In this document: positions 25,654 through 45,935 of the stretch, piece by piece
How the letters are laid out: each line of letters starts with the position of its first letter
Numbering within the stretch: position 1 is the stretch's first letter
NCBI GenBank assembly: GCA_951812335.1
Contig: OX638293.1
Span: 248,001 to 312,000, forward strand
DNA from: Rhodothermales bacterium
GTDB lineage: Bacteria > Bacteroidota > Rhodothermia > Rhodothermales > VXPQ01
Length of the DNA stretch: 64,000 bases
Reading direction: 5' to 3'
The notes under the pieces: generated by a model
Databases searched by the model: none
What the model was told of the DNA's origin: nothing
What the model saw: only the letters and a program-made list of their open reading frames with translations
Made by a program: the position numbers and the translations under genes

Positions 25654-26136
25654 ATGCCCAAACCCCTTGCTCCCTCCCCCGATCACCGCCGGCGCATCGC
25701 TACTCTGCTCGGCTTGCTGACAAGCGAGGAAGCGCAGGAAACGATGTCGCAGCGCCTCGGACGTTCGAGGTTGGCGTACGAACTGGCTTGCGCCTGGTTC
25801 GATGACGTGTATGTTCCGAGCGAGCGGTATATGGATGGGCTGAAGGGCGATATGGCGCCCGAGGCGGCAGAGACCTTCAGAGACGCTTTCGATCCCGTGG
25901 AACTGGCCGCCATGGAGCGGTTCCATCGTTTCTTCGAACTGCGCATCGATATGCTGCCGGATGCGATGATCGCCTCGCGATGCATCCCTGTGGACGACCG
26001 CTGGCGGAGCCTGATGAAGGACGCAGGCTATCTGCTGGAAGACATCGGCGGTAATGCAGAAAATTTCCGGCCGAGGGTTACAGAATCCGGGGGTGTCTCC
26101 GAAGAAATCGCCGCAATCATCCGAATCGCAACCTGA
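25654..26136 (+). CDS. Hypothetical helical protein
   Basis: A 160-residue soluble protein, mainly helical, beginning MPKPLAPSPDHRRR. It contains an E/F/D-rich central part (DMAPEAAETFRDAFDPVELA) that resembles small uncharacterised helical proteins of this bacterial group, but no named family was recognised. I chose the ATG at 25654; a TTG eight codons earlier is in frame. Its 3' end overlaps the convergent CopD-like gene by 20 bases. Confidence 0.55.
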   Translation: MPKPLAPSPDHRRRIATLLGLLTSEEAQETMSQRLGRSRLAYELACAWFDDVYVPSERYMDGLKGDMAPEAAETFRDAFDPVELAAMERFHRFFELRIDMLPDAMIASRCIPVDDRWRSLMKDAGYLLEDIGGNAENFRPRVTESGGVSEEIAAIIRIAT

Positions 26137-26569
26137 GCCCCAAGTACAGCACGACCGCAGCAAGTAGGGCGTTGGCAAGCGCAGACCACAGGGCAATCCG
26201 CGTTTTCCCCTGAGGCACAAGCTTCAGACTGTACCATGCCTGGTTCACGCCCATCGTAAGGAACAGGATGAATTTGGCGCCGACCAATTGGAGATACATA
26301 GTCGGATAGCTGAAGTTTGTCAGCCACCCCGCATTGATGAGATTGAAAATCCCTGTCAGCAGAATGGTGAAGAAAAGCTCCCTGCTGAACCGCTGGAACC
26401 GGCGCACCAGCGTCTCGATAAGCGTAGCGGCGCGTCCGGGGTCAAGGTGTTCGGCCCCAAACCGGCGGACGGCAGGCATCGCCACAAACGGTACGACGAT
26501 CATCCCGCCCACCCAGACGATGATCGCCGCCAGATGAATCCATAGAACGACGGCGCGAAAGGTGAACAT
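26117..26569 (-). CDS. CopD-like membrane protein
   Basis: A 150-residue membrane protein with four hydrophobic helices. The first helix, VLWIHLAAIIVWVGGMIVVPF, with its H-x8-GG pattern resembles the CopD/DUF4149 group of copper- or haem-related membrane proteins. Basic loops precede helix 2 (RRFQRFSRELFF). It is the last gene in the direction of the bd-like cluster, but repeat copy B separates it from the gene before, so co-transcription is uncertain. Confidence 0.65.
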   Translation of the reverse strand: MFTFRAVVLWIHLAAIIVWVGGMIVVPFVAMPAVRRFGAEHLDPGRAATLIETLVRRFQRFSRELFFTILLTGIFNLINAGWLTNFSYPTMYLQLVGAKFILFLTMGVNQAWYSLKLVPQGKTRIALWSALANALLAAVVLYLGLRLRFG

Positions 26570-26650: not shown

Positions 26651-27130
26651 TTACATGCCCATGCCGCTGCGCGCCCGGTCCAGGACGGTCTCGGTGACTT
26701 CGGCGAGTCCTTCCGCTTCGGCATAGCGCTCCACGCTTTGCATGACCATGCCGCGGGCAGAAGCAGGGATATTCTCCATGCGCTGGCGCGCCCCCTCCGT
26801 CCAGGGCATGCCGCTGCGCCCGAAGGCCTCGTTGACCATACCCGTAAACGGACATTTCGAAGCTCCGCTTTCCACAGCGGGGCCGGAGGCTCCGACCGAC
26901 GAAGAAGCCAGGCCGGTCCGTATGCTTTCCATAGGCTCGGCAGGCACGGGTTGTCCGCCGATCTTCACGCCAAGAGAGCGCACCACCTGGGTCTCGCTCG
27001 CATTGGTCAGCATGGCCGTTTGCCTGTCGCACACGGGGCAACCGAAGATCACCGTCATGGAGCCGCGATCGGGACCGCGCGTTTCGGCGAGGTGCATGGC
27101 CTCGTCACATTCCACGCAAAGAAATTTCAT
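26651..27130 (-). CDS. Zinc-ribbon protein with C-terminal PCP_red domain
   Basis: A 159-residue soluble protein. The N-terminus is a four-cysteine zinc ribbon (CVEC near residue 5, CPVC near 31). A linker contains a KCPF motif near residue 91, a Cys-Pro pair of the kind seen in haem-responsive sites. The last 50 residues (PWTEGARQRMENIPASARGM and onward) match the PCP_red domain, the small domain at the end of the light-independent protochlorophyllide reductase B subunit. No photosynthesis gene is present, so a tetrapyrrole-related accessory role is the likely reading. It overlaps the Mrp gene by an ATGA. Confidence 0.75.
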   Translation of the reverse strand: MKFLCVECDEAMHLAETRGPDRGSMTVIFGCPVCDRQTAMLTNASETQVVRSLGVKIGGQPVPAEPMESIRTGLASSSVGASGPAVESGASKCPFTGMVNEAFGRSGMPWTEGARQRMENIPASARGMVMQSVERYAEAEGLAEVTETVLDRARSGMGM

Positions 27131-28026
27131 GAGGCATCCAGCAGAAGTTTAAGACAATCGGCCAGTTCGGTGAAGGCGCACGCCGCCGGCCGATCCGGGT
27201 GTTCGTGCAGGTACGGACGTCCTTCGTCGGCAGCCATGCCGAGGGCCGGATCGAAGGGGATACGAGCCAGTACAGGCACATCGAGGGTCCTGGCTAACCG
27301 GTCCGTACGGTCCGGCGGATACAGCGGATCTGCCTGTCCGCAATGCGGACAGGTATGCGACGCCATGTTTTCGACAAGCCCCAGCGACGACACATCGAGG
27401 TGTTCCTGGATCATGCGTACGGAGCGGCCCACCGCATCGAGAGCTACCGCCGAAGGAATGGTAACCACGACAGCCGCATCGATGCGCGGAGTCACATCGG
27501 CAAGCGTCGGCAAACGATCCGAGCCGGGCGGCAAGTCTACAAGGAGTATATCCAGCGCACCCCATGCGGTATCGGTAATAAGCTCCCGCAGGGCGCCTGC
27601 CTCACGGAGCCCGCGCCAGGCGGCTCCGCCGGATTGCGAGGGAGCGTCCCACGCTACAGGCGTCGTTTCGTCGCGCAAAAAGAGAGCCATGGACATGACG
27701 CGTACACCCAACGTTGTTTCGGGAGGAGAAACAACTCCTCCTGCACGTTGCAGCGGGGTCGTCGCCTGCACACCGGTCATCCGCCCGAGCGACGGGCCAT
27801 TGATATCTCCATCCACGAGACCGACGCGCGCGCCATTGCGGGCCAGCGCCGCGGCAAGATTCACCGCCACAGTGCTCTTTCCAACCCCTCCCTTACCGCT
27901 CATTACCGCGACGATATAGCGAATATCGCTGAGACGTTCCGCCAGCCGGTCGGCCTGCACCGCCACCTGACCCGCCACATCGGAACCCCCATCGGTTGCT
28001 ATGTCGTGCCAGGTTTTCATCCGCAT
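27127..28026 (-). CDS. Mrp/NBP35-family iron-sulfur carrier ATPase
   Basis: About 299 residues from the ATG at 28026 (another ATG lies two codons on; a TTG directly after the previous stop is also in frame). The deviant Walker A MSGKGGVGKST is followed by GLVDGDINGPSLGRM, the LLVDLPPGSD motif and a C-terminal HTCPHCG pair. These define the Mrp/ApbC family, which carries and transfers [4Fe-4S] clusters. Within this cluster it could mature the radical SAM enzyme or ferredoxin. It sits between the universal-stress/PCP_red gene and the zinc-ribbon PCP_red gene. Confidence 0.9.
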   Translation of the reverse strand: MRMKTWHDIATDGGSDVAGQVAVQADRLAERLSDIRYIVAVMSGKGGVGKSTVAVNLAAALARNGARVGLVDGDINGPSLGRMTGVQATTPLQRAGGVVSPPETTLGVRVMSMALFLRDETTPVAWDAPSQSGGAAWRGLREAGALRELITDTAWGALDILLVDLPPGSDRLPTLADVTPRIDAAVVVTIPSAVALDAVGRSVRMIQEHLDVSSLGLVENMASHTCPHCGQADPLYPPDRTDRLARTLDVPVLARIPFDPALGMAADEGRPYLHEHPDRPAACAFTELADCLKLLLDAS

Positions 28027-28041
28027 AGCCCATCGCCCCAA

Positions 28042-29976
28042 TCACGACACGGCTTCTTCCGCCTGCTGCTTGCGAATAGCCTCTTCCATGGCTTTCCTGG
28101 ACACTTCCAGCCCTTCTTCGGCAATCTCCAGCGTGACGATGGTGGTGTTATGCCCGTCTGCGGCCGTTTCCATCCGCCCCTTCGTCTTGTCGCGCATGAA
28201 TCCTTCGGGGACCCGTTCGAGGCGAGCCCAGGCGTCCGGCGTCCACTTGTACGCCCCCTTGTCAATCAATTCGACGGAAACGGCTTCCCGGGCCGGGGCC
28301 TGCTCCGCCGGATTCTCCTTCAGCCCGGAACCGGGCGCAGAAAGCACCGAGGTGTCCTCAAGCAAATCCCCTACCGCCGCCGCCACCATGTCGCGGGTGA
28401 TCGTATCAAGTCCCTTGACACGGGCGCTCTTTTCGATCTGTGCGCGGGCGCGGCGCATCTGGTACCCGTCCGGGACCTTCCTGAGCAGTTCGCGAGCATC
28501 CCGCGTCCACTTGATCTTTTTCTTGTCGAAGGTTTCGATCTCTTCGACAGCGCCTTCGAGGGGCGCCAGCTTGCGGAGCGCCTCCTTGTCGATCTCCTGG
28601 AATTCCTCGGGAGCGGCCCCGCATACAGCGCACACGGCGGGCTTGAATCCGCGCGCCGCGTAGCCGCACCGGCTGCATACGTACGTCGTTTCATCGACGG
28701 CGGCAATGTTTTCGCGAGCCACGGATTCGGCAATGATTCCCATAGATCGCATGGCGGATTCCGGAAGAATGGTCGCCATCGCCTGCTCGACCACCTTTTG
28801 GGTGATCACGGAGTGGCCACGTTCCATGGCCCACCGATGGATCGTCGTACGCGCAATGTTGCGGGCAAAATCGGGAGCCGTATTGAGAATGGCCGTGGCC
28901 TCGTCCGTCCAGATCATGGATTCTTCGGCCCGCACGTCGAGCGGGGGCGTGTACCGCCTGCTCGACAACAACACATTACAGGAAACCATCCGCAGCAGGT
29001 TTTCCGTATTGCTGCCGATGTCCATGTCTTCGTCGCTATGCACCCCGATGCGACCCATGACAAGCAGCCAGGGCTTTTCGCGGCGCACGTACTGGAGAAT
29101 CTTGTCGAAGGCCTTGCCGTCGAGCAGCGTGATCTTCAGGTCCACGCCCTCTTCGGCGGCAACGCGATGCGCCACTTCGAGATGCGACTGGTATATCTTC
29201 GCAAGCCCCGTGTCGATAACCTCTTCGTGGAGCTGCTCCTGCTCCTTGAACCGGAATACCTTCGAGGCCTTTTCGGTCAGCACATGCACGATGCTGTTGA
29301 ACATCGCGTAATGCAGGTAGGGGTCGTAGACCGACACCGCCTCCACGCGCTTGTCCAGCTTCCGGCCCAGTTCGAGGGCCGTTTTCAGACCGGCGAAAGA
29401 CTCGGGGCTGCCGTCAACGGCCACCACGATGTGCCCGCCATCGGGTTCGCCCACGGCGTGCCCGTTCATCTGACGGTCGAAGGCATCCGTGTTCTTGACG
29501 ACAAGCATGTCGGTGCGCGCCCGCCGCACGACCCGAGAGCATACGCTACCCAGCACACTGTCGCGAACGGCGCCGAGACCGAGCGCCCCCATCACGACCA
29601 GATCGTAGTCGCTCTCCTCGATGTCCTGTACGATGATCTTCCAGTTCTTTCCATCGTACATCTTCGGCTGGAAGGGCAATTTTTCCTCGCGGCACCGTTT
29701 GTCCATCACGGTCAGGTACGAATCCGAAATCAGTTCGAGACCCATCGTGATGAGCGTGTCGTGCACCTTCCGCTGTTTTTCCATCTCCTCTTCAACGAGA
29801 TACTCCTCGGGCAGCGTAAACTCCATCTGCTTGAAGCGGTAATCGTGCATACGGGCTGCGTAGGCATGGCTGCCCACGAGCTCCCCATCGAACCGCTTCG
29901 CCAGTTCCACGGCAAGTTCGATGCTCGCCATCGAATGGTCCGAATTGTCGACCGGAACGAATATAGTCTTGTACAT
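28042..29976 (-). CDS. Tandem universal stress protein fused to zinc ribbon and three PCP_red domains
   Basis: A 644-residue soluble multidomain protein. Two UspA-type domains come first: residues 1-160, with the nucleotide motif GALGLGAVRDSVLGS near 130, and about 175-340, beginning HIVVAVDGSPES. PCP_red copy 1 follows (about 350-400, IWTDEATAILNTAP), then a rubredoxin-like ribbon (CSRCGYAA...CAVCG, about 430-450), PCP_red copy 2 (about 485-535, KWTRDARELLRKVP) and copy 3 (about 575-620, KWTPDAWARLERVP). USP domains bind ATP; PCP_red is known from dark-operative protochlorophyllide reductase. I know of no function for the combination. It lies mid-operon with a five-base gap upstream. Confidence 0.85.
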   Translation of the reverse strand: MYKTIFVPVDNSDHSMASIELAVELAKRFDGELVGSHAYAARMHDYRFKQMEFTLPEEYLVEEEMEKQRKVHDTLITMGLELISDSYLTVMDKRCREEKLPFQPKMYDGKNWKIIVQDIEESDYDLVVMGALGLGAVRDSVLGSVCSRVVRRARTDMLVVKNTDAFDRQMNGHAVGEPDGGHIVVAVDGSPESFAGLKTALELGRKLDKRVEAVSVYDPYLHYAMFNSIVHVLTEKASKVFRFKEQEQLHEEVIDTGLAKIYQSHLEVAHRVAAEEGVDLKITLLDGKAFDKILQYVRREKPWLLVMGRIGVHSDEDMDIGSNTENLLRMVSCNVLLSSRRYTPPLDVRAEESMIWTDEATAILNTAPDFARNIARTTIHRWAMERGHSVITQKVVEQAMATILPESAMRSMGIIAESVARENIAAVDETTYVCSRCGYAARGFKPAVCAVCGAAPEEFQEIDKEALRKLAPLEGAVEEIETFDKKKIKWTRDARELLRKVPDGYQMRRARAQIEKSARVKGLDTITRDMVAAAVGDLLEDTSVLSAPGSGLKENPAEQAPAREAVSVELIDKGAYKWTPDAWARLERVPEGFMRDKTKGRMETAADGHNTTIVTLEIAEEGLEVSRKAMEEAIRKQQAEEAVS

Positions 29977-29981
29977 AATGG

Positions 29982-30386
29982 CTAATAGATCAGTTTGAGG
30001 CGGTCGTAAATGTACGTGAGGCGGTACATAACATATCGCAGCGTTTCGGAATCTTCTGCAAGAAGCGAAACGGCAAGCAGGGCACGCTGGAGGCGATCGG
30101 CGCGGCTCGGGAGGGAAGAACGTTCCGCCTCTTCCAGTCCCTCGGCGAAGGCATTCATCTCGAAACGCGCCCGTACCATCGTGTTGTAGGGATCGCTGCC
30201 CGGCTCGGCCTCTTCCATGATTCGCTCCAGGCGTCCCGTTTCCATGCGTACAATGGCCGGCGCCATGCGGCGAAATTCCTTCCAGCCTACAAAATCCAGT
30301 TCGTTCCAGTCAAGACGCCTCGCGGCCAACTCGGCGGCACGCGCTTCGAGCGCATCAGGCGGCGCTATGTCCCGGGACGGCTCCAT
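29982..30386 (-). CDS. Hypothetical helical protein of the bd-like cluster
   Basis: A 134-residue soluble, largely helical protein (MEPSRDIAPPDALEARAAEL...). It has a conserved-looking WNELDFVGWKEFRRMAPAIV segment near residues 27-46 and ends DRLKLIY. Whether the ARLxxVP-like spacing in the first half relates to PCP_red is unclear, as no clear match was seen. Spacing of 5 and 14 bases to its neighbours indicates co-transcription with the respiratory cluster. No function was recognised. Confidence 0.6.
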   Translation of the reverse strand: MEPSRDIAPPDALEARAAELAARRLDWNELDFVGWKEFRRMAPAIVRMETGRLERIMEEAEPGSDPYNTMVRARFEMNAFAEGLEEAERSSLPSRADRLQRALLAVSLLAEDSETLRYVMYRLTYIYDRLKLIY

Positions 30387-30400
30387 GATGGCAGGCGGAA

Positions 30401-30997
30401 TCAGAAAGGACGGTGTACGGTGCCGGGTTCGAGGCGCTCTCCCATTTGAAGCAAACCCTTGTACTTACGGCGAAACTCCGCCGGGTCCTGAGCGATCGTT
30501 TTCATGGAAAATTCGGGTAGAAGCGCCGTGAGGCGTTCGTCCATCTCTTCCTTCTCGATCCAGCCATATTTTATATAGGCCAGCACAATATGATAGTCCG
30601 GTTCGTCGCCGCGAGCCACGTGCCGGAATGCCACCGAGTACGGATCGAAATGCCACAAACTCAATCCTGAGTCCGGGAGGTCCCGGACAAGCCGGTGCCG
30701 TTGTTCGGCTCCTGCCGGCAGGGGAATCAGATCGCCCGGAAATTCCTGCTCGATCGCCACGCCGAACTGCGCAGCGGCGCGGGCCGCGGCCGCATCCCAT
30801 TCGGGCCTGTACGCCACATCGGCATACAGGCGCACGGCGTCCGTCCACGACCGCCATCCCTCCAGGACCTGCGAGGTCTCTCCAAGCAGAAGCAACCGCC
30901 CGACACGCCCCTGCTCGGGAGCCGAAGCGACATAATTGTGGGCCGCAGCAGCTAAAAAATCCTGCAGTACGAAACGGGTTACCAGCGATCCGGTCAT
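30401..30997 (-). CDS. Hypothetical protein of the bd-like cluster
   Basis: A 198-residue soluble protein from the ATG at 30997, which overlaps the ferredoxin stop as ATGA; a longer open frame extends upstream but runs through the ferredoxin gene. The sequence begins MTGSLVTRFVLQDFLAAAAH and ends with a charged helical part (EEMDERLTALLPEF, then a FRRKYKGLLQMGERL stretch). No cysteine motif, membrane helix or known family was seen. Its coupling to the ferredoxin argues for a shared role. Confidence 0.6.
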   Translation of the reverse strand: MTGSLVTRFVLQDFLAAAAHNYVASAPEQGRVGRLLLLGETSQVLEGWRSWTDAVRLYADVAYRPEWDAAAARAAAQFGVAIEQEFPGDLIPLPAGAEQRHRLVRDLPDSGLSLWHFDPYSVAFRHVARGDEPDYHIVLAYIKYGWIEKEEMDERLTALLPEFSMKTIAQDPAEFRRKYKGLLQMGERLEPGTVHRPF

Positions 30998-31209
30998 GAT
31001 GTCACCTCCGCATCGGACACGGCGACAGGTTCCTTCCAGTCCGGAATCGGCACGATGGCTTCCTCGGGACACTCGGCGACACATTCCGTAAAATCGCAAC
31101 ACGTATCGTCGATGACGTAGATCGGATCTCCGGGTGAAATCGCGCTAATCGGACACACGTCCACGCACAGGCCGCATTGCGCGCAGGCGTCTGTGATCAT
31201 GTGAGGCAT
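30994..31209 (-). CDS. Ferredoxin, two [4Fe-4S]-type motifs
   Basis: A 71-residue ferredoxin. The first cluster motif is canonical, CAQCGLCVDVCP (residues 9-20). The second is CCDFTECVAECP (about 37-48), with the spacing of the bacterial 2[4Fe-4S] group in which the second motif has a longer insertion. It would donate low-potential electrons, most obviously to the radical SAM enzyme encoded two genes upstream. It overlaps the next hypothetical gene. Confidence 0.88.
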   Translation of the reverse strand: MPHMITDACAQCGLCVDVCPISAISPGDPIYVIDDTCCDFTECVAECPEEAIVPIPDWKEPVAVSDAEVTS

Positions 31210-31262: not shown

Positions 31263-32057
31263 CTACTCCTGCCCCTGTCCGTTCATAGCCTGTTTGTCGA
31301 TCACGCCGCCGGCTTCGTTGACAGTGTTGTCGCTACGCTTGCCGGGATAACGGCGTTTGGGCGTCTTGTCCTTCCAGCGGTAGATCCAGAAACAGTACGA
31401 ATAAGGATAAATGGTCTGAACGACATGAAATGGCTCGTATTCGAACAGGCGGCGCATCGCCCAGGGGAAACGGTACCGCTTGTCCTCCGGCTCGATGATT
31501 TCAACGACACAGTCTGCCTGAAAACTGACGAACACCGGGGAATTGCCGGTCCACAGCACGGACGCAAAGGGATTCTCGACAAGATTTTTGAGCGTGGATC
31601 CCTCAAAAATTTCGAGGAGCCCGACGCGCCGCCAGTCGATATGCTCGGGATGGGAATACAACTCGCGGGCCGTCCGGATGCGCAGATCGCGGGTCTCGTT
31701 CACGGCATGGGGCGGTAATGCCTGTATCCGGGCGACGGCATCTTCCACCAGTTCGAGGTAATAATCGATATGTTCATCCTTTGGAGTGAACCCTACGCCC
31801 TTGTTGGCCAGATTGGGAACAAGCGCATCGTCAGCCCATGTGGCCACAACAGGCAGATGCCCCGCGTTGAACGCGATGTACTGGTCCTGCTCAATGGCGT
31901 CGTAAATGCTGTGCTTGTAGTCGAGCTGCCACCGGATGAATTTCTCCGGGAGCTCAATGACGTCAAGATTCCGGTCGGCGCCGTTCTTTTTGAGACGGGC
32001 GACCCCGTTGGTTACCTGCACCTGCTCTGTGAGCGTTTTTGCGTCAAGCTTTTCCAT
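31263..32057 (-). CDS. Hypothetical protein of the bd-like cluster
   Basis: A 264-residue soluble protein (MEKLDAKTLTEQVQVTNGVA...) without signal peptide or membrane helix. It is rich in aromatic residues (WQLDYKHSIYDAIEQDQYI near 43; a FHVVQTIYPYSYCFWIYRW segment near 210). I recognised no family. It lies between the radical SAM and ferredoxin genes with gaps of 32 and 53 bases, so it probably belongs to the same maturation module. Confidence 0.62.
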   Translation of the reverse strand: MEKLDAKTLTEQVQVTNGVARLKKNGADRNLDVIELPEKFIRWQLDYKHSIYDAIEQDQYIAFNAGHLPVVATWADDALVPNLANKGVGFTPKDEHIDYYLELVEDAVARIQALPPHAVNETRDLRIRTARELYSHPEHIDWRRVGLLEIFEGSTLKNLVENPFASVLWTGNSPVFVSFQADCVVEIIEPEDKRYRFPWAMRRLFEYEPFHVVQTIYPYSYCFWIYRWKDKTPKRRYPGKRSDNTVNEAGGVIDKQAMNGQGQE

Positions 32058-32089: not shown

Positions 32090-33394
32090 TTATACAAGTC
32101 GTTCCGGGGTAACGGGTTCCTTAATAACCCCGGCGTCGAGCGGTTTCTTGACAGGTTCCGAAAAAGACGGCGCCCTCCGATCCATGCCGGCAAGCGCTTC
32201 CTGCATGAGGCCTGCAGAGATGCGGCGCACGCCGTGTCGGTCCGCATACGTTTCAAGGCCTTTACGAACTTTGTCGCGAATGAAAGAGATCGGGATACGA
32301 TCAAGTCGCCTCTGCGCTTCGGGAGACCATTCTATATCGTATCGTTCGAGCATCCTGCCGGTCGGCTGGTAAAGACAGGCCGGATCTTCGGCAAGATAGT
32401 CCTCGAAAGCGGCCTGAGCCCGGCAGCGGCAACCGCCGCAGAGTTCGTTGAACTCGCATGCGCCGCATTTGCCCTTGAGCCGGGAAGGATCGCGTAAATC
32501 CGTCAGCACGGGAGAAGAAGTCCATATCTCGGCGAAAGACTGTTCGCGGACGTTTCCGGCTACCACCGTCATGTACGGGCACGGCGTGACATCCCCGCCC
32601 GGCGTGATGCGGCAGTACTGCGTACCGGCCATGCAGCCGCCGCTCTCCAGTCCGCCAAGCCCCTCGTCGTACGCGATCTGCTTGAATTGCGGGGCGCATT
32701 TCGAGCGAACCAGCATGGGACGGTGCTCGTCCTGCACCTTCACCATTTCCCGAAGCATCGTATCCGTGGCGACGGCGGAAAGATCATTCATCTCCTGCCC
32801 CCGGCCCGTCTGTACCAGAAAGTACAGATTGAAGGACCAGGCGCCTTTCTTGCGCGCAAACGCCATCAGTTCAGGAATTTCGTCCCGGTTCATATCCATG
32901 ACGGTCGTTTGCACGAGCACTTCGAGGCCATGCCTGCGACATATTTCGAGGGCGCGGACCGAATGCTCCCAGGCGTTCGGGCCACCGCGAAAGGAATTGT
33001 GCTTCTCGGGATCGATGGAATCGATGCTGATGCCTACCCCTTTGACGCCGCATTCCACCATCTTGCGCGCAACGAAATCGTTGACCATGACCCCGTTCGT
33101 GCCCATCACCACCCACATTCCCTTTGCAGAGGCCGTCTGCGCAATCCCGTAGATATCCCGGCGCAAGAGCGGCTCTCCGCCGGTAAGAATGAGCATCTCC
33201 GTACCGAGCGCCTCCATCTCGTCGATCAGCGCGAGACACTCGTCCGTGGTTAATTCGTTTTCTTCGGCGGTACCCCCCTCCATATAGCAATGGGGGCACT
33301 TGAGATTGCATTTCCTGGTCAGATTCCAGGAAACGAGCGAGGGGCGATACCCACCGGGAGAAGACAGGAAGGATAGGGAACGAGCGGCTTCCAT
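32090..33394 (-). CDS. Radical SAM/SPASM enzyme (NirJ/AhbD/PqqE-like) with C-terminal PCP_red domain
   Basis: A 434-residue enzyme. The radical SAM cluster motif CNLKCPHC is at residues 29-36 and a glycine-rich LTGGEP motif at about 69-74. A C-terminal SPASM/twitch region is cysteine-rich (CRITPGGDVTPCPY..., then CGACEFNELCGGCRC near 325-345) and would bind auxiliary [4Fe-4S] clusters. This layout is typical of NirJ and AhbD, which modify haem precursors, and of peptide-modifying enzymes such as PqqE. A PCP_red domain follows at about 375-425 (EWSPEAQRRLDRIP). No small substrate peptide gene was seen next to it, so a tetrapyrrole substrate is more likely; this is inference. Confidence 0.88.
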   Translation of the reverse strand: MEAARSLSFLSSPGGYRPSLVSWNLTRKCNLKCPHCYMEGGTAEENELTTDECLALIDEMEALGTEMLILTGGEPLLRRDIYGIAQTASAKGMWVVMGTNGVMVNDFVARKMVECGVKGVGISIDSIDPEKHNSFRGGPNAWEHSVRALEICRRHGLEVLVQTTVMDMNRDEIPELMAFARKKGAWSFNLYFLVQTGRGQEMNDLSAVATDTMLREMVKVQDEHRPMLVRSKCAPQFKQIAYDEGLGGLESGGCMAGTQYCRITPGGDVTPCPYMTVVAGNVREQSFAEIWTSSPVLTDLRDPSRLKGKCGACEFNELCGGCRCRAQAAFEDYLAEDPACLYQPTGRMLERYDIEWSPEAQRRLDRIPISFIRDKVRKGLETYADRHGVRRISAGLMQEALAGMDRRAPSFSEPVKKPLDAGVIKEPVTPERLV

Positions 33395-33421: not shown

Positions 33422-35038
33422 TCAGGCGGAAACGGAGGTGCGATACCGAAAGCGCATCAGGCCGACGATGCTGAGCAGCACGAAAAGCGTGAGACCGGAA
33501 GCACGTAACATGGGCATCACCGGCGAAGGACGCTCGGAGGGCTCGAGGTACAGATAATACCATCCCGTTACGCCCCGGCGATTGCCCCGCTCGTCGTTGA
33601 AACCGTCCCATACCGAGAAGGCGATCGGGACGAAGGTGTCTTCCGCAAAACGCTCGTCGCGCGGCATGGTGAAGACGGCGGTCCATGCACCGTCCTCGTA
33701 GGTCGCATAGACGGACGGGGAGGTTTCGCCAGCGAGCAGGTTACCACTCCCGCGCCCGACGTACGAACGGCCTTCTCCCGAAGCCAGATCGGCGAACCAC
33801 AGATCGACCGGCTGTCTTGCGTCCCCGAAAAGGAAATACGGCATACCTCCCGACGCAAGCTCCCGGGGGAACTGTACGGCGACCGCATCGGACCAGATGC
33901 TTGTCACGGTATCCCGAACGACCTGCTCCGTGGGCGGAACTTCCATATCCGGGGCATTGCTCCCCGTCGTCTCCGCGGACATGTCGTGCCATGAAAGAAG
34001 AATGGCGATCTCGTCCGCATTGTAGCGCACTTTCACCTCGATGCCGTCTACGCCGGGCATAAACGACCGTCCGGGTTCAATGATCTGTCCGACCACGGGA
34101 AAATAGGCGCCGCGTTCCTCGCCGAAAGCTGCCCTGCCCTGTGCCGGGTCGACGGGATCGTTTGCATACTGCGCCGTCGCAGAGGTCGCATAATCGGGAT
34201 CGTCCTGCGACAGCGAATAGACGTAATCGACGAGGGCCCAACTGTCTTCGATCGGAGTAATGCTGTAGGACGGCATGGGCGAACCGTCGAGGCCCGTCGT
34301 AAACGTGCGATAGATGTCCTCGCGTGTGTCGCCCCCTATGAAGGTCCAGCGCTTCGTAAGATCGGCAGGGCGGATATGGTTGCCCCATTGCTCTTGCAGC
34401 GTCACAGCGGAAGGCCCGTCGCCGCGTCCGGCCATGCCATGGCAATCGAAGCACTGGTTCTCTTCGTAGACTGCGCGCCCCCGTTCGGCAGACGATTCGC
34501 TGAACGACGGGGGGTTGGGAATCTCGATTACATCGGGAACGCCGTACGGTCCGGAGAAATCGTCGTTGAAGGTTTTTAGATAGTAGACAAGGTTGCGAAT
34601 TTCGTCGTCGTTTAGCTGAGGCCAGGGGGGCATACCGGTATAGGGCATGCCGTTGCGAATCACCCCTGCGATATCGTCATCCGTAGGCAACTGTCCGCTC
34701 GGTGTGGTGCGCACCTTGTAGATGCCTGCCGTAAAGTCGCGGGGCATCGGGCGCATGAATGGCGCAGCAACCCCGTCCCCTTTGCCGGTTTCCCCATGGC
34801 ACTGCGCACATTTGTCTATGTAAAGCAGGCGGCCGGCCTCGCGCTGTTCGTCGGCGCCAAGATCCGGCGCGGGTTGCGCCAACACGGTCAGGGGAAGCAA
34901 TACGACAGGCAAACACGCCCCCAGGACATACGATATGAGGCTCGATCGGGAAAAACGCACAACAGCGCGTTCTGCCCGGCAAGCAGACGAGCGAATCGCT
35001 ATGTCGGTGTTATTCCTAATGGTCTCCACCTCCCCCAT
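33422..35038 (-). CDS. Diheme cytochrome c with ethylbenzene-dehydrogenase-like haem domain
   Basis: A 538-residue exported protein with a late signal sequence (about 33-55). Two c-type domains follow, with CAQCH (about 77) and CFDCH (about 190). An EB_dh-like domain then spans about 300-500 (WSDAVAVQFP, PYFLFGDARQPVDLWFAD, PIAFSVWDG, WYYLYLE), a fold that binds haem b in the gamma subunits of DMSO-reductase-family enzymes. A single C-terminal membrane helix anchors it. No molybdenum catalytic subunit is nearby, so the EB_dh part probably relays electrons within the bd-like complex. Its start overlaps the upstream gene by 23 bases. Confidence 0.88.
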   Translation of the reverse strand: MGEVETIRNNTDIAIRSSACRAERAVVRFSRSSLISYVLGACLPVVLLPLTVLAQPAPDLGADEQREAGRLLYIDKCAQCHGETGKGDGVAAPFMRPMPRDFTAGIYKVRTTPSGQLPTDDDIAGVIRNGMPYTGMPPWPQLNDDEIRNLVYYLKTFNDDFSGPYGVPDVIEIPNPPSFSESSAERGRAVYEENQCFDCHGMAGRGDGPSAVTLQEQWGNHIRPADLTKRWTFIGGDTREDIYRTFTTGLDGSPMPSYSITPIEDSWALVDYVYSLSQDDPDYATSATAQYANDPVDPAQGRAAFGEERGAYFPVVGQIIEPGRSFMPGVDGIEVKVRYNADEIAILLSWHDMSAETTGSNAPDMEVPPTEQVVRDTVTSIWSDAVAVQFPRELASGGMPYFLFGDARQPVDLWFADLASGEGRSYVGRGSGNLLAGETSPSVYATYEDGAWTAVFTMPRDERFAEDTFVPIAFSVWDGFNDERGNRRGVTGWYYLYLEPSERPSPVMPMLRASGLTLFVLLSIVGLMRFRYRTSVSA

Positions 35039-35846
35039 GATCCTCCCGCGCCCGCGGTCGGTGTCCGGTGAAATCGTACAGGAAAAGCGTCACATCCCAC
35101 ATATCCTCTTCCGAGAGAAAGTTCTCCCAGGCAGGCATGGCCGAAAGCCAGGGCGTGGATTCGTTCGGAAGACCTGGACCGCCCTTGGCGATGCGCCAGA
35201 AAATATAGCCTTCCTGCAGCATGGCGATGGTCGTGGCGTCCTGGAAATTCGCGGGAATGGGGTCGAACCCGTGGGCAAAGAGGCCGTCTCCCGCCATATC
35301 GTCCCCGTGGCAGTACACGCAGTTTTCGTAGTACACCCGGCGCCCGTTCTCCACATGCTCCTCGAACGCTGCCGGGTCTTCCGTTTCAAGGGCGCGGTAC
35401 GGATTGTCGTCGTTGACAAGATCGATCGTATTTCCGGCCACTTCTATACTGGTAGGCGGCGGCGGATGAATCGTGCGGCTGCTGAGAGGAGGCGCCGGCC
35501 CTTCCGTTACGTCGAAATACACGCGGAGCGCCACAAGACAAGGCAGCACCGCAATGACCGCCAAGAGGGAAATCGTATACTTTTTCTGCGTCGTGAATGC
35601 CACGAACTGGTCCAGTACAAACCGGAAATGCGCCGAATTCGCCGATAAATACGCCACCAACGCAAGTGTCAGGATGGCCACGAACATCCCCTGGATCGAG
35701 GTGGGCAGCGGCGGGTCGATGCCCCAGCGCAGAAAAACGAATACAGCAATCCACCACCCCGCCAACCAGCCGAGGATGTTTATCTTCGGCACGAAGCGCA
35801 TCGCTACGAGCCCTGCACACACCACAAGCAGGATAATGATGTTCAT
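35016..35846 (-). CDS. Membrane-bound monohaem cytochrome c
   Basis: A 276-residue protein with three or four N-terminal membrane helices (about 1-45, 50-70, 90-110). A periplasmic cytochrome c domain has CVYCH near residue 177 and the likely axial methionine in WLSAMPAW near 237. It ends in a histidine- and glycine-rich tail (EDHGGGGDH) that may bind metal. It overlaps the preceding diheme cytochrome gene by an ATGA and is a probable subunit of the bd-like complex. Confidence 0.87.
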   Translation of the reverse strand: MNIIILLVVCAGLVAMRFVPKINILGWLAGWWIAVFVFLRWGIDPPLPTSIQGMFVAILTLALVAYLSANSAHFRFVLDQFVAFTTQKKYTISLLAVIAVLPCLVALRVYFDVTEGPAPPLSSRTIHPPPPTSIEVAGNTIDLVNDDNPYRALETEDPAAFEEHVENGRRVYYENCVYCHGDDMAGDGLFAHGFDPIPANFQDATTIAMLQEGYIFWRIAKGGPGLPNESTPWLSAMPAWENFLSEEDMWDVTLFLYDFTGHRPRAREDHGGGGDH

Positions 35847-36667
35847 GATCCTCCCTTTTGCAACGCCAGGTAATCAACCAGCGTCTTGAGCTGTCCGGAC
35901 GATATCTTGTCGTAAAATCCGGTAGCTCTCAACTGGGCCGACATCAGACCCGCCACAAATCCCTCCGACACGACAGCGTCCGGATCCATGATCGCCTCGT
36001 ATATTTCGGCGGTCGAAAGATCGTTTCCCACATTGTACAAACTGGGACCCAGCAGAGGCGTGGGTTCGGTGACGCTGTGGCAAGTACCGCAGGCATACAT
36101 GGTGAACAACTCCTCCCCGGACAGGTTTTCCGAAGAAGGCGCACCAGACACGCTTGCTTGCGAAGAAGTCGATGCGCCGGCCGAATTCTCTTCGCTCTGC
36201 CAGCGCAACTCCGTGTCCAGCGTAACCGTGGGGGCGCCGCCGAGACTCTGTAAATACGCAATCACCGCGAGAATTTCCCGGTCGTTCAGGTCGATGGGCG
36301 GATCGGAGATAGGAGTCATGCCGGGCAGAAATCCCTCGACAATATATTCATTCGGGTCATAGAGCGACTCGGCCAGGTATTCCACGTCGCTGAAGCCTTC
36401 CTTCCGCTCGGCAGCCACCAGCCCGATGTTCGCCAGATCGGGGAAACGCCCTCCGGTTTCCCCGGATACGGTATGACACGTAAGACACGTGCCCTTCCCC
36501 GAAGCGATTTCCTCGCCGGCGGCTACCAGATCCTCCGTGGTCATGTCGGCTCCGAGTTCCGTATCCTCGGGCGGATACGTCACCGTCTGCGGCACCATCT
36601 GGCTGACGTAGCTATAGAATGCGGCCACGAGAATGGTGAAGACACATATCTTGACAGCGTTCATCAT
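35843..36667 (-). CDS. Membrane-anchored diheme cytochrome c
   Basis: A 274-residue protein with one N-terminal membrane anchor (about 4-25). Two cytochrome c domains carry CLTCH (about residue 61) and CGTCH (about 193), joined by a Ser/Ala-rich linker (about 155-180). Each domain has a late methionine for axial ligation. Its ATG overlaps the stop of the bd-like subunit I gene, so it is almost certainly a direct partner, passing electrons to or from that membrane core. Confidence 0.9.
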   Translation of the reverse strand: MMNAVKICVFTILVAAFYSYVSQMVPQTVTYPPEDTELGADMTTEDLVAAGEEIASGKGTCLTCHTVSGETGGRFPDLANIGLVAAERKEGFSDVEYLAESLYDPNEYIVEGFLPGMTPISDPPIDLNDREILAVIAYLQSLGGAPTVTLDTELRWQSEENSAGASTSSQASVSGAPSSENLSGEELFTMYACGTCHSVTEPTPLLGPSLYNVGNDLSTAEIYEAIMDPDAVVSEGFVAGLMSAQLRATGFYDKISSGQLKTLVDYLALQKGGS

Positions 36668-38409
36668 GACGATGTCCCCTCCCCGGCATCGAGTTTTTTC
36701 TTACCCGCAAGACTGGAAAGGAAAAACACGACTGCGATAAACGCAAAGAAGATCAGCACCGTCACAGACACCACATTGGCGGCGTAGCCCAGCGTGGGTG
36801 TAAACGCATCCACCGATGTGTCGCGCATAACCCCGTAGACGTGCCAATGCTGGCGAATGCCCGAACGGACGTAGCCCATAAGTCCCATCGTCCACGCAAA
36901 CGTGATGGCAATGAAAAAGAGCGCGTACTGCGCCCGGTTGGGAATCTTGCCCCACTCGATCGGCCCCAGAATCTTCGCCTTTCTGAACATGAAGACATCG
37001 ATGATCGTGATCGAAATCATGGCGAAGAGCACCAGACTCACCTGCGGGATCGACAAACCGATCCGTACGGACGCCTCCACGAAGTAGCCGTACACCCCGA
37101 GGAAGATGACAACGCCCACGACCACCGCCAGGATACCGAACTGAATGATATTGCCGGTTTTCGCCCACGAAACGGTCGCCTCCTTGTTGGCCCGTCGGTA
37201 AAACAGAAAGCTCAGGTATGTGGTGAGAATGAGCACGTTGACGGCGGTGTTCTTGGCCGACATCACGCCCAGCACATTCAGGATCGGGTGATGAGACCCG
37301 CCCATAGCGCGGGCTTCCTCGACCGTGGCGACCAGGGAATGCGGCGTGGCCCAGACGATAAAACAGACGGTAATGGATGCGAGCAGCCATTTGGTGAACT
37401 TGCGATAGCGTTCCGCCCCGTGAATGCGCTCCATACTCAGCCACAGGTAATAGTTGGCTGCAAGGAACAGGTTGCCGATAAGCACAGCCTGAATGATGAA
37501 CAACCAGGAGAATGTGCCGCCCATGAGCGCAATACCGAGGCTCTGGGAAAAAGCGTAGATTTCACGGCCCAGCCAGTAGCCTGCGAACGGCAGCGGGAGC
37601 AACGCTGCGATCGCAATAAAATTGCCCATGTAGCCCATCCAGTCGTAGTGCGCCCGCTCTTCGTCGGTCTTCGCGCCAAGAAACTTGTAGGCCCCGTATG
37701 CCGCCGCAATCGACCCGCCGAAGCAGATATTTGCGATGAGCCGGTGGATGTTGATGGGCATCCACGTGAAGTTGTTGATGGCGTCCCAGGTGCTGAGCAG
37801 ATTCCCTTCGGCGTCGATGCCGTTGGGGGAATTCATGAAGGTAAGCCAGGAATCGGCAATGAAAATGATGGCGATGCCTACCAGGTTGAGACAGAGACCG
37901 ATGACCAGGTGCAGCCACTTCGGCATCTTGCCCCATCCGTAATAATAACTGTACAGGAAGACGGCTTCGAGGAAGAAGACGCATGCGTACAGCATGAATG
38001 TCCAGTCGAAGATGGAGACCAGATACTCCATCAACCGGGGATACAGAATGAACAGGAAGAAGGTCAGAAGTGCGCCGAGACTGGCTGTAAAGGAGAAAGA
38101 GACGGACAAAAGGCGCGTGAATTCATACGCCAGATCGTCGTAGCGCTTGTCGCCGTTGCGGAAGCCGATGAACTCGATCGTGAGCGCGAACATCGGGACG
38201 GCGAGCACGAACGCCCCGAACATGAGGTGCAACTGGGCGATCACCCAAACCACCACACGGCTGCCTACGACGGGAAAGGAGCGATACTCGACTTGCCCGG
38301 CGGCTTCCTGAGCCCACGCATCGGGCGTCCAGAACGCAACAAGAGCCAACCCCGCAAGCATCAAAAACAGGAGAACCCCGGAGGGCAATCTCCTCGCAAG
38401 CAGTTTCAT
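36664..38409 (-). CDS. Cytochrome bd-like oxidase subunit I (CydA-like)
   Basis: A 581-residue membrane protein of the CydA family with a signal-like first segment and about nine to ten helices. Expected haem-ligand regions are seen: the first histidine in AQLHLMFG (about residue 61), acidic FFLEAVFLYSY (about 147) and the second histidine in NIHRLIANICFGG (about 202). Canonical CydA has a GRQPW motif near the quinol site; the matching place here reads RSGIRQHWHVYGVMRD (about 520-535). No CydB gene is adjacent; c-type cytochrome genes follow instead. Similar CydA-like proteins occur in Nitrospira and relatives. Whether it reduces oxygen, nitric oxide or something else is open. Confidence 0.88.
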   Translation of the reverse strand: MKLLARRLPSGVLLFLMLAGLALVAFWTPDAWAQEAAGQVEYRSFPVVGSRVVVWVIAQLHLMFGAFVLAVPMFALTIEFIGFRNGDKRYDDLAYEFTRLLSVSFSFTASLGALLTFFLFILYPRLMEYLVSIFDWTFMLYACVFFLEAVFLYSYYYGWGKMPKWLHLVIGLCLNLVGIAIIFIADSWLTFMNSPNGIDAEGNLLSTWDAINNFTWMPINIHRLIANICFGGSIAAAYGAYKFLGAKTDEERAHYDWMGYMGNFIAIAALLPLPFAGYWLGREIYAFSQSLGIALMGGTFSWLFIIQAVLIGNLFLAANYYLWLSMERIHGAERYRKFTKWLLASITVCFIVWATPHSLVATVEEARAMGGSHHPILNVLGVMSAKNTAVNVLILTTYLSFLFYRRANKEATVSWAKTGNIIQFGILAVVVGVVIFLGVYGYFVEASVRIGLSIPQVSLVLFAMISITIIDVFMFRKAKILGPIEWGKIPNRAQYALFFIAITFAWTMGLMGYVRSGIRQHWHVYGVMRDTSVDAFTPTLGYAANVVSVTVLIFFAFIAVVFFLSSLAGKKKLDAGEGTSS

Positions 38410-40783: not shown

Positions 40784-41125
40784 TCATTCGCCCTGTCCTG
40801 TCCCCTCCGTATTCAAAATCGCTTCCTTCCCCACATTGCCGAGATCGCCCCGGAAGGCGGTGTCGAACAACGTAAAGGCGAGGAAGACCACCACGAAAAG
40901 AATCCCCAGCCCGAAAAACAACGCATTGACCGGTTTGTCGTACTTGAGAGCCATGAAGAAAAGCACCACGAGCAGGGCCTTGGTCCCGGCGATCGCAAGG
41001 GCCAGCGGTATATTGAACGCACCTATATCGACCTGCGCCGTGAGGGCTGTCAGAGCGGTCAGCGCCACCAGGGCGGCGAATACCTTCAGCAGCGTTTTGG
41101 GTGGAATGATATGGTGCCCTTTCAT
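40784..41125 (-). CDS. coxD: caa3 oxidase subunit IV
   Basis: About 113 residues from the ATG at 41125. A TTG directly after the coxC stop would add 11 residues. Three hydrophobic helices with the AIAGTKALLVVLFFMALKYD stretch place it in the prokaryotic COX4 group. It ends the ACIII-caa3 operon and is followed by a stem-loop. Confidence 0.85.
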   Translation of the reverse strand: MKGHHIIPPKTLLKVFAALVALTALTALTAQVDIGAFNIPLALAIAGTKALLVVLFFMALKYDKPVNALFFGLGILFVVVFLAFTLFDTAFRGDLGNVGKEAILNTEGTGQGE

Positions 41126-41158
41126 GCCCGCAAGGCGATCCGGCGTCCCGGTTCGCAA

Positions 41159-41827
41159 CTAAATGAGATAAAGCAATGGAAAAAGAAATATCCAGATGAT
41201 GTCCACAAGGTGCCAGTACAGACCGGAAAGCTCCACAGGCGTGTAGTACCCGCTGTGAAAATCTCCCCGGATCGCCCGCACGCCCAGCCAGCTTAATACA
41301 CCCATACCGACCAATACATGCACCCCGTGAATGCCGGTCATCACATAATAGATGCTGAAGAAGATCGGAACGATGGGCTGGTTCATCTCCGCATACGCAA
41401 AATTTCCGCCGGGAAAGATGCCCAGATGGAATTTGTGCGTGTACTCGAAGTACTTCACCACCATGAACACGCCGGCCAGCAACACCGTGATGAACAGATT
41501 GACCACCAGCGCCCTGCGCTTGTCGGTCTGCGCAGCACGGATGGCCAGCGCCACGGTGAGGGAAGAGGCCAGCAGCACCACGGTGTTCAGGCCGCCCATC
41601 CAGGGGTTCAGTTCGGTGGAAGCGACCGCAAACACCTCCGGATACCAGACGCGATACACGGCATAGGCCACAAACATCCCGCTGAAAAGAAGGACCTCCG
41701 TGATAAGGAAAAGCCACATCCCGAGTTTCGCCGCGTCGAACTGCTGATCGGACGAAACGAAGTAATGCTTCAGATGCGCCGGGGAGCGCTCCTGTGCGGC
41801 CTGTTCCGCCGCGCTCGTATTGGCCAT
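41159..41827 (-). CDS. coxC: caa3 oxidase subunit III
   Basis: A 222-residue membrane protein with five helices. Family landmarks are MWLFLITEVLLFSGMFVAY near residue 37, YYVMTGIHGVHVLVGMG near 160 and YWHLVDIIWIFLFP at the end. It supports the catalytic subunit of the caa3 oxidase. It lies five bases after coxA and directly before coxD. Confidence 0.94.
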   Translation of the reverse strand: MANTSAAEQAAQERSPAHLKHYFVSSDQQFDAAKLGMWLFLITEVLLFSGMFVAYAVYRVWYPEVFAVASTELNPWMGGLNTVVLLASSLTVALAIRAAQTDKRRALVVNLFITVLLAGVFMVVKYFEYTHKFHLGIFPGGNFAYAEMNQPIVPIFFSIYYVMTGIHGVHVLVGMGVLSWLGVRAIRGDFHSGYYTPVELSGLYWHLVDIIWIFLFPLLYLI

Positions 41828-41832
41828 GATGC

Positions 41833-43551
41833 TTACGTCCGGTCCTGGTTCAGAGCGACATCCGGCGGATCCGCGCCCCTATGGTCTTCGACGGTTTCGG
41901 AGCGGGACGCCCCGATCCGGTCGAACTCGTAGGGCCCCCGCGTGACAAACGGCGTCCGATGGAAATTATGGGGATCCGGGCGCACGCCCGTATGCGTCCA
42001 TTCCAGCGTAGCGCCCCCCCATGGATTCGCGGTCGCCTTCTTCCCTCGAAAAAGGGAAACCAGCAAATATCCCAGCACCAGAAAGAGGCCAAGCCCCATG
42101 ACCCACGAACCTATCGTGGAAAGCTGATGCAGGGAGGTGAACTCGGGCAGATAGTCGTGGTAGCGGCGGGGCATGCCGCGCGATCCCAGCACGAGCTGCG
42201 TGAAAAAAGTCAGGTTCAGCCCCACGAATATCAGAAACGCAGCGATCTGGCCGCATACCTCGTTGTAAAGGCGTCCCGTGACTTTCGGCCACCAGTAATG
42301 CAAGCCGCCAAGGAGCGCGATGACCGTACCGCCCATCATTACATAATGAAAATGACCCACGACGTAGTAGGTGTCGTGCAGGTGAATATCCACGGCCAGC
42401 ACACCCACCATGATGCCCGTTACGCCCCCGATCGTGAACAGCACCAGAAACGAAAGCGCGTACAGCATCGGGGTTTTGAACGAAATGGATCCCTTGTACA
42501 TGGTAGCGATCCAGTTGAACACCTTGATCCCCGACGGAATACCGATCAGGTAGGTAATCAGCGAGAAAATGATCGAGGAAATGGCGGATTGGCCGGAGAC
42601 GAACATATGATGCCCCCAGACCAGAAAACCCAGCATGGCGATCGCTACGGAAGACAACGCAATGGCCGTATATCCGTAGATGCGCTGCCTCGAAAACGTC
42701 GCGATCAGTTCGGAAACGATCCCGAAGCCCGGCAGAATCATGATGTACACCGCCGGATGCGAGTAGAACCAGAAGAAATGCTGAAAAAGGATTGGATCGC
42801 CGCCGAGGGCCGGGTCGAAAATGCCGATCCGGAGGAGACGCTCCAGGAAGAGCAGCAGGACGGTGATACCGAGCACGGGGGTGGCGAGCACCTGTACGAT
42901 ACTCGTCGAATAAATGCTCCAGACAAAAAGCGGAAGGCGGTTCCACGTCATCCCCGGCGCGCGCATCTTGTGCACCGTAACGATGAAATTGATCCCCGTG
43001 AATATGGAGGCGAACCCCGCAACGAAAACCGCCATGGCCAGGAACAGCACTGCGGGGCCCGTGCGGGCCGAATAGGGCGTGTAGAAAGTCCATCCCGTAT
43101 CCACGCTGCCGACCACCATCGCCACGACGATGAGAATGACGCCCAGTAAATACAAATAGTAACTGAACAGATTCAGCCGGGGAAACGCCACGTCTTTTGC
43201 GCCGAGATGCAGGGGCAACAGGAAATTGCCCAGAAAACCCGGGATGGCGGGAATGATGAACCCGAACACCATGACGATGCCATGGAGCGAGAACAGCTGG
43301 TTGTAGCTCTGGGCGGACAGGAAGGTCTCGCCGGGCAGCAGCAGTTCGGCGCGCACCAGCAGCGCGAAGACGCCTGCCGCAAGAAAGGCGATCGCTGCCG
43401 TGACGGCATACAGGATGCCGATACGCTTGTGGTCCAAGGAAAACATCCACGACCCGATGCTTTTCGCATGGGTAATGTAGTCGCCGTGCGCAGGATGCTC
43501 TTCGGCATCCCGGGCCTGCGCTGCTTCGCTCCGATCCATGTCTTGGGTCAT
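41833..43551 (-). CDS. coxA: caa3 oxidase subunit I, A2 type
   Basis: The catalytic haem-copper subunit, about 572 residues from the ATG at 43551 (a GTG nine codons upstream is also in frame). All metal ligands are visible, including WGHHMF for CuB and VGHFHYV for the haems. The D-channel glutamate is replaced: the motif is YSHPAVY instead of GHPEVY, the hallmark of A2-type oxidases such as the caa3 of Rhodothermus marinus and Thermus. The K-channel segment IPSGIK is intact. It pumps protons while reducing oxygen with electrons from the haem c of its subunit II. Confidence 0.95.
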
Positions 43552-43600
43552 AGATTCCGTCGATCCGTCTTCGTACACGGCGGCGTCCGTGCGCGCACCG

Positions 43601-44533
43601 CTATTGTTGCTCCCGGATAAAGGCGATCAGTGCGGATAATTCCCGCTCGCTGAGACCACCGTAAATGGGAGACATTATGTTGGCATACCCTTCCACCACC
43701 TTGGCGCCGGGCTCGACGATGGATTCGCGCAGGTAATCGTCGTCCACCACCACAGTGGATCCGTCGTCGAGCGTCTCGGTCTTTCCATACAATCCCGCCA
43801 GGGTCGGGCCAATCCCCGGCGTCCCGTCTATACTGTGGCATGTGACACAAACCTGTTGCTCGTACAGTTGCGCGCCCAGCTCGGGAAGCGGGGTATCCTC
43901 GTCCACGCCCGCCGAGGCAAGCCATGCCTCGAAATCTCCCTGCGAATGGGTAATGACCGACGCCAGCATCGCCGCATGCCCCGTTCCGCAGTATTCCGTA
44001 CAGAACACCTGAAACGTATCCACGCGCGTGGCCTCGAACCAGACCGCCGAATACCGGTTCGGCAACACATCCTGCTTGACCCGAAAGGCCGGGACAAAGA
44101 AACTGTGCAACACGTCGACGCTGCTCATGACAAGACGCACGGGACGGTCTACGGGCACGTGCAATTCGTTGGTCGTGACGGCGCCGGTCGGATACTCGAA
44201 ATCCCATTTCCACATAGCGCCGCGCACATAGACTTCGTAGGCGTTCGGCGGCGCCACGCTCTGCTCGACGAACAACCGGAACCCCCAATTGAAAACGATC
44301 AGCACGAGGATCGTGGGCAACACCACCCACGAGATTTCCACCATCTTGTTCGGCTTCACGCGCTCCGGAGCAGGACCGCCGCGCCGCCGCCGGTAGCGAT
44401 ACGCAAGGTACGCTATAGCCGCCACCACCCCTGCAAAAAGGATGACGCTTGCCCACGTTACGAAGTAGAACAGGCTGTCGATTTCGGACGACAGGGTCGA
44501 CGCGCCATCGGGCAGCCAAAACGATCCGGTCAT
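43601..44533 (-). CDS. coxB: caa3 oxidase subunit II with fused cytochrome c
   Basis: A 310-residue CuA subunit. Two membrane helices (about 22-44 and 66-86) are followed by the cupredoxin domain, with the CuA histidine in DVLHSF and the cluster CTEYCGTGH near residue 188, and a C-terminal cytochrome c domain with CVTCH near residue 232. The fused haem c is what makes the enzyme a caa3 oxidase; it accepts electrons from ACIII or a soluble carrier. It lies downstream of the SCO gene by 90 bases and upstream of coxA. Confidence 0.95.
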
Positions 44534-45927: not shown

Positions 45928-45935
45928 GGTCAACG

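Follow-up and report, generated by a model that had tools for sequence, protein, structure and literature searches.

What does a radical SAM enzyme do in the operon of a bd-like cytochrome, and on which kind of substrate does it act? The question is raised by a window of 64,000 nucleotides from a Rhodothermales genome (all coordinates without a locus label refer to this window), in which a first-pass annotation had placed a radical SAM enzyme with a PCP_red domain inside a bd-like operon. This much is borne out by the open reading frame, the Pfam domains, the Cyt_bd_oxida_I match, and the gaps between genes. The annotation further proposed a tetrapyrrole as substrate and a likeness to NirJ and AhbD.

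A Radical SAM Gene in a Compact Operon

The gene (32090–33394, minus strand) codes for a protein of 434 amino acids. It contains a Radical_SAM domain (residues 24–180, 108.9 bits) and a SPASM domain (residues 254–313, 45.5 bits), both above the Pfam cut-offs, and a C-terminal PCP_red domain (PF08369; residues 356–400, minus strand 32195–32329) scoring 43.8 bits against a curated cut-off of 32.5. The CNLKCPHC motif occupies residues 29–36, and the AF2 model has a pLDDT of 86. The protein is kept at about 63–96% identity in Rhodothermales, Myxococcota, Acidobacteriota, Calditrichota, Chloroflexota, and Marinimicrobia, and because it is conserved across these six groups the reading frame is far beyond chance. 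Within the phylum, a close ortholog (68–100% identity) is found in 13 of 394 genomes, the window's own included, and all 13 belong to one order, the Rhodothermales. When named genomes were scanned, 44 radical SAM loci were recovered from records whose titles name Rhodothermales, Myxococcota, Chloroflexi, Acidobacteriota, Calditrichota, Deltaproteobacteria, and Marinimicrobia. The genomes compared are mostly MAGs. One copy (G183:C1:166990-168219, loci L013 and L042) has a single in-frame TGA near its start and is either a pseudogene or the result of a sequencing error.

The operon comprises 12 genes on the minus strand, with intergenic gaps of −23 to +53 nt from the bd gene through the final PCP_red gene. 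The first codes for a bd-like cytochrome of CydA type (36664–38409, 581 amino acids) that passes the CydA profile Cyt_bd_oxida_I (PF01654) with 87.2 bits, the aligned part being residues 50–286 only. In the profile match to solved CydA chains the N-terminal half alone aligns, including a shared His at the first haem site. No cassette protein has a Pfam match to CydB. Then come a cytochrome c protein in which domain and motif searches find two CXXCH (35843–36667), a membrane-anchored cytochrome c with one CXXCH (35016–35846; Pfam and motif), and a protein with two cytochrome c domains (PF00034) fused to a haem b domain of the ethylbenzene dehydrogenase (EB_dh) type (PF09459; 33422–35038). The radical SAM gene is followed by genes for a 264-aa protein (31263–32057), a 71-aa ferredoxin (30994–31209; CAQCGLCVDVCP), and two conserved proteins that match no Pfam or NCBIfam family, one of 198 aa that is an optional member of the cassette (30401–30997) and one of 134 aa (29982–30386). 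The last three genes code for a tandem Usp protein that bears three PCP_red domains along with a weak rubredoxin-like knuckle (28042–29976; Pfam), an Fe-S carrier ATPase of the Mrp/NBP35 type with a CPHC motif (27127–28041; PF10609, 231 bits), and a CXXC...CXXC zinc-ribbon-like protein with a C-terminal PCP_red domain (26651–27130; PF08369). According to Pfam and to the loci of relatives, a small membrane protein with weak CopD similarity (26117–26569, minus strand) comes after the cassette. The order bd-cytA-cytB-cytEB-rSAM-...-Usp-Mrp-PCP_red is retained in all 12 relatives compared. Neither the bd nor the Usp protein, used as a query against plasmids, turned up a related cassette. Just upstream of the cassette lies an operon for a caa3-type cytochrome c oxidase (40784–44533, minus strand; COX2 with cytochrome c, COX1, COX3, and COX4), accompanied by a weakly SCO1-like protein (44624–46141).

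Within the cytochrome bd superfamily, OR-N of Nitrospinota has been proposed to take electrons from cytochrome c (PMC10839748). The locus resembles such putatively cytochrome c-using members in its gene content, which is a CydA-like core encoded with c-type cytochromes. Literature searches found no published tie of these cytochromes to a radical SAM enzyme or to PCP_red proteins.

The 264-aa protein probably adopts a PNPOx-like split-barrel fold, of the flavin/haem type. A weak PNPOx_N match is found in 12 of 14 relatives, and VIA gives Z scores of up to 7.7 for a model with a pLDDT of 69, in a range (Z < 8) that may reflect a common arrangement; Foldseek alone gives no significant match. The fold includes both flavin and haem binders. 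In a Chloroflexota locus (L164:1824-3758), a homolog of the 264-aa protein (probability 99.9) is naturally fused to Usp-PCP_red, and this fusion links the split-barrel, Usp, and PCP_red members of the cassette.

Family Placement of the Enzyme

The enzyme lies below the cut-off of every NCBIfam family scored. The best scores are those of NirJ2 (TIGR04055, 350 bits) and AhbD (TIGR04545, 302.7 bits), each with a curated cut-off of 500, followed by TIGR04053 (256), NirJ (TIGR04051, 210 against 515), AhbC (195), the mycofactocin maturase MftC (160), and PqqE (135). The NirJ2 of Paenibacillus itself scores 440 bits, and the operon-borne AhbD references of Chloroflexota, at 429–458 bits, likewise remain under the TIGR04545 cut-off.

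The SPASM cysteines are spaced C233-x20-C254-x17-C272-x37-C310-x2-C313-x5-C319-x2-C322-x17-C340. They fit exactly the motif CX20-33CX17CX36-37CX2CX5CX2CX17-35C published for full-SPASM AhbD, a subset of AhbD with two auxiliary [4Fe-4S] clusters (Fix et al., PMC10452713). The full motif is present in 36 of 38 orthologs, in the NirJ2 of Paenibacillus, and in four of seven AhbD-type references (these come from AhbC-AhbD-siroheme decarboxylase operons of Chloroflexota, with two solo copies in addition). It occurs in none of the AhbC, NirJ, NirJ1, TIGR04053, PqqE, and MftC references tested. Judged from the sequence, the radical SAM core and this motif show a predicted RS cluster and ligands for two auxiliary [4Fe-4S] clusters.

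In the tree, the enzyme and its divergent relatives form one clade (support 100/98), which adjoins AhbD, TIGR04053, and NirJ2 with a joint support of 99/98. The enzyme stands outside the AhbD clade, the two being separate (100/98 and 99/97). AhbC and NirJ group apart (100/98), as do PqqE and MftC (95/90). Because the best profiles, the shared cysteine motif, and the 99/98 clade agree, the enzyme is regarded as AhbD-like. The phylogenetic placement proposed in the first-pass annotation thus groups it with AhbD, TIGR04053, and NirJ2, apart from AhbC/NirJ and from PqqE/MftC; the AU test rejects neither a clade with AhbC/NirJ (p = 0.144) nor one with the peptide enzymes (p = 0.106).

The latter value is compatible with a maturase that would put a crosslink or thioether into a protein of the cassette, such as a cytochrome or the Usp protein. 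SPASM enzymes often act on peptides, and, of the structural matches listed, the peptide maturases SkfB, PqqE, and SuiB are the closest solved folds; neither these matches nor the PDB sequence search include a chain of AhbD or NirJ. Such a role is nevertheless improbable, given that the profile scores, the cysteine motif, and the supported branches point to the tetrapyrrole group, that haem synthesis genes are found as neighbors (see following), and that no precursor peptide gene lies next door. PqqE and MftC share the SPASM fold with the enzyme and differ from it in the low scores, in cysteine spacing, and in having a precursor gene. A candidate precursor in the cassette was rejected, since the lone conserved short gene codes for the ferredoxin (Fer4, 27.4 bits against a cut-off of 21.1); clustering with peptide enzymes together with a conserved precursor, which the first-pass annotation named as its refutation, was thus not found. 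The ferredoxin gene is masked when the next gene is given a longer reading frame with a GTG start. It is conserved across the order and adjoins or lies near the radical SAM gene in most Rhodothermales cassettes and in L056 of Chloroflexota; none was found near unlinked radical SAM copies.

In Thermus plasmids (L116:3282-6101), a TIGR04053 radical SAM gene lies immediately 3′ of a nitrite reductase gene. Because of this position, the sequence hints that TIGR04053 too is perhaps a tetrapyrrole enzyme.

Haem Synthesis in the Host Genomes

Several loci from the scan place the radical SAM gene close to haem genes. In L065, where it is unlinked from the cytochrome, it is followed by one hydrolase-like gene on the opposite strand and by genes for HemQ (132.9 bits), ferrochelatase (287.8 bits), and a HemY-type oxidase, and then by those of alternative complex III. 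In genome G402 (L066), HemQ and a HemY-type gene lie less than 6 kb from it, and in L057 a UbiA/CtaB-type prenyltransferase and a HemY-type gene are upstream of it. CtaB-like or HemY-like genes are also near it in L053, L054, L059, L063, and L083. The names HemY and CtaB stand here for Pfam families (Amino_oxidase and UbiA) and sequence appearance, and not for equivalog models. Together with the profile scores, the tree position, and the eight-cysteine motif of AhbD type, the HemQ, HemH, and HemY neighbors in other phyla lend support to the tetrapyrrole substrate of the first-pass annotation.

HemF, HemN, or HemQ is present in 27 of the 30 enzyme-positive genomes. All 13 hosts of the order are covered, by HemF in four (the genus of the window), by HemQ in eight, and by HemN in one, and so are 14 of the 17 hosts from other phyla. 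The three exceptions are G405, which carries a siroheme decarboxylase, G408, a small and probably incomplete genome, and G410. The complete coverage of the order led us to reject the enzyme as the sole coprohaem decarboxylase, that is, as the missing step of haem b synthesis. It could instead be an additional haem b synthase that, like AhbD, makes haem b by decarboxylating coprohaem, with no need of oxygen or peroxide, and fills the bd-like cytochrome at low oxygen. This is consistent with a cysteine motif identical to that of AhbD, with the HemQ-HemH-HemY neighbors, which belong to a pathway with coprohaem as intermediate, and with the rarity of HemN alongside the enzyme in the order (1 of 13 hosts against 10 of 20 nonhosts, p = 0.02). 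The last contrast also hinted at a substitute for the oxygen-independent HemN, a role that was rejected because 10 of the 17 hosts in other phyla have both. The same 10 genomes weigh against an additional synthase, as do the HemF, HemN, or HemQ already present in 27 hosts, the HemF-type pathway of the window's genus, in which coprohaem is no intermediate, and the separation of the enzyme clade from AhbD. An additional synthase is therefore a rather doubtful explanation, though a better one than a peptide maturase. Six near-complete genomes of the order (G013, G034, G085, G096, G131, and G242) have ferrochelatase and lack HemF, HemQ, an above-cut-off HemN, and the radical SAM copy alike.

A siroheme decarboxylase (PF17805), the profile used for the AhbA/B partners of AhbD and the NirDLGH partners of NirJ, is absent from 29 of the 30 hosts, the window's genome among them, which removes the substrate of NirJ and AhbC. 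An enzyme of NirJ/AhbC type acting on didecarboxysiroheme to give a d1-like cofactor has in its favor the homology to NirJ and AhbC seen in the scores above, and membership in a broad family of tetrapyrrole radical SAM enzymes. It is very improbable all the same, as NirJ and AhbC have the four AuxII cysteines alone and lack those of AuxI, whereas the enzyme has both sets and belongs to a different supported clade; the siroheme route was rejected for want of the decarboxylase. The likeness to NirJ is weaker than that to AhbD and NirJ2, and the comparison with NirJ should be replaced by one with these two. In conclusion, because HemF, HemN, or HemQ is present in 27 of 30 hosts and the siroheme decarboxylase is missing in 29, the enzyme is unlikely to be a NirJ or the only haem b synthase.

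The PCP_red Set

PCP_red is known mainly from chlorophyll synthesis. The genome of the window (2.69 Mb) has five such domains, all inside this operon: besides that of the radical SAM enzyme, three in the Usp protein and one in the zinc-ribbon protein. These three proteins form a set whose presence is all-or-none in the order. Within the order, all 13 genomes that carry the enzyme have PCP_red, and the 20 that lack the enzyme have none (Fisher p = 2e-9, the genomes not being phylogenetically independent); the domain is also present in all 17 enzyme-positive genomes examined among the other records. Even if the radical SAM gene stands apart from the cytochrome, as in Acidobacteriota, Usp-PCP_red is still directly 3′ of the bd-cytochrome c genes wherever the locus sequence is long enough, and Mrp and PCP_red genes are usually near it. 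In the divergent Chloroflexota loci L163 and L165 the remaining core consists of bd, cytochrome c, Usp, and radical SAM. This constant helper set, found wherever the enzyme occurs, suggests that the cytochrome has a haem-tailoring line of its own.

At L086 and L111 (Chloroflexota), the Usp and radical SAM genes lie beside a molybdopterin oxidoreductase along with the cytochromes. Divergent Usp-PCP_red and radical SAM genes adjoin a large molybdopterin oxidoreductase that has a subunit of EB_dh type at L086:1-11215 and L162:1-8099, and because of these neighbors the bd-like protein may not be the only one that the set serves.

Searches of the literature on PCP_red with radical SAM, AhbD with cytochrome bd, and PCP_red with Usp found no relevant report. 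The nearest known use of the domain is in ChlB/BchB, a subunit of the dark protochlorophyllide reductase, and the zinc-ribbon protein weakly matches the C-terminus of a solved ChlB (2XDQ chain B). The nitrogenase-like domain of ChlB/BchB is missing here, PCP_red being carried instead by the radical SAM, Usp, and zinc-ribbon proteins.

A Dedicated Tetrapyrrole Enzyme?

The reading that we prefer, with a probability of roughly 0.5, is that of a dedicated tetrapyrrole-modifying radical SAM enzyme, in a clade of its own resembling AhbD and NirJ2, that serves the co-encoded bd-like cytochrome. In its favor, PCP_red accompanies the enzyme strictly in the order, and Usp-PCP_red comes after the bd-cytochrome c genes even when the enzyme is unlinked. 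Counted against it are the missed cut-offs, the AU values of 0.106 and 0.144, the peptide-maturase folds, the unlinked genes of Acidobacteriota, the kinship among the genomes, and most of these being MAGs.

AhbD, the haem synthase of the siroheme-dependent pathway, shares with the enzyme the radical SAM core, the equally spaced eight-cysteine SPASM motif, 33–39% identity in the references used, and tetrapyrrole genes as neighbors. The enzyme differs from it in its separate clade, its score of 303 bits against a cut-off of 500, its PCP_red tail, the lack of AhbA/B partners, and hosts that already make haem b. NirJ2, of the type found in Heliobacteria and Paenibacillus, gives the top profile score, has an equal motif, and is 38% identical in its Paenibacillus plasmid copy. 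Unlike the enzyme it has no PCP_red, and it is accompanied by a second, NirJ1-like radical SAM gene and an AsnC-type siroheme decarboxylase-like gene, neither of which is found here.

The most likely substrate of the dedicated enzyme is haem b, coprohaem, or a close precursor, modified to serve some special purpose. Ferredoxin, as a natural donor, would bring electrons to the RS cluster, and the 5′-deoxyadenosyl radical would act, as in AhbD, on a propionate side chain of the iron porphyrin (haem b or coprohaem), the auxiliary clusters carrying off the leftover electron. The PCP_red domains may be docking modules that gather the enzyme, the Usp scaffold, and the zinc-ribbon protein at the tetrapyrrole, with Mrp as a putative supplier of Fe-S clusters. 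The product would then be inserted into the bd-like core, or else into the haem b partner of that core. That the core holds a non-standard haem is possible, and the existing haem b routes of nearly all hosts make this more likely. More tentatively, the enzyme might make a previously undescribed haem, for example one with propionates further oxidized or decarboxylated, solely for this cytochrome c-linked bd-like oxidase, with the PCP_red proteins as a loading complex; we regard this as a little less doubtful than an additional haem b synthase.

If the preferred reading is right, the enzyme represents a new branch of haem-shaping radical SAM enzymes linked with a respiratory complex that is found in several phyla, and the PCP_red set is an independent handle for finding this branch. 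Two questions would then become accessible to tests, namely the haem content of the cytochrome c-linked bd-like enzymes and the role of PCP_red beyond chlorophyll synthesis. Should the set indeed be a loading complex, PCP_red would gain a general role in the docking of tetrapyrroles.
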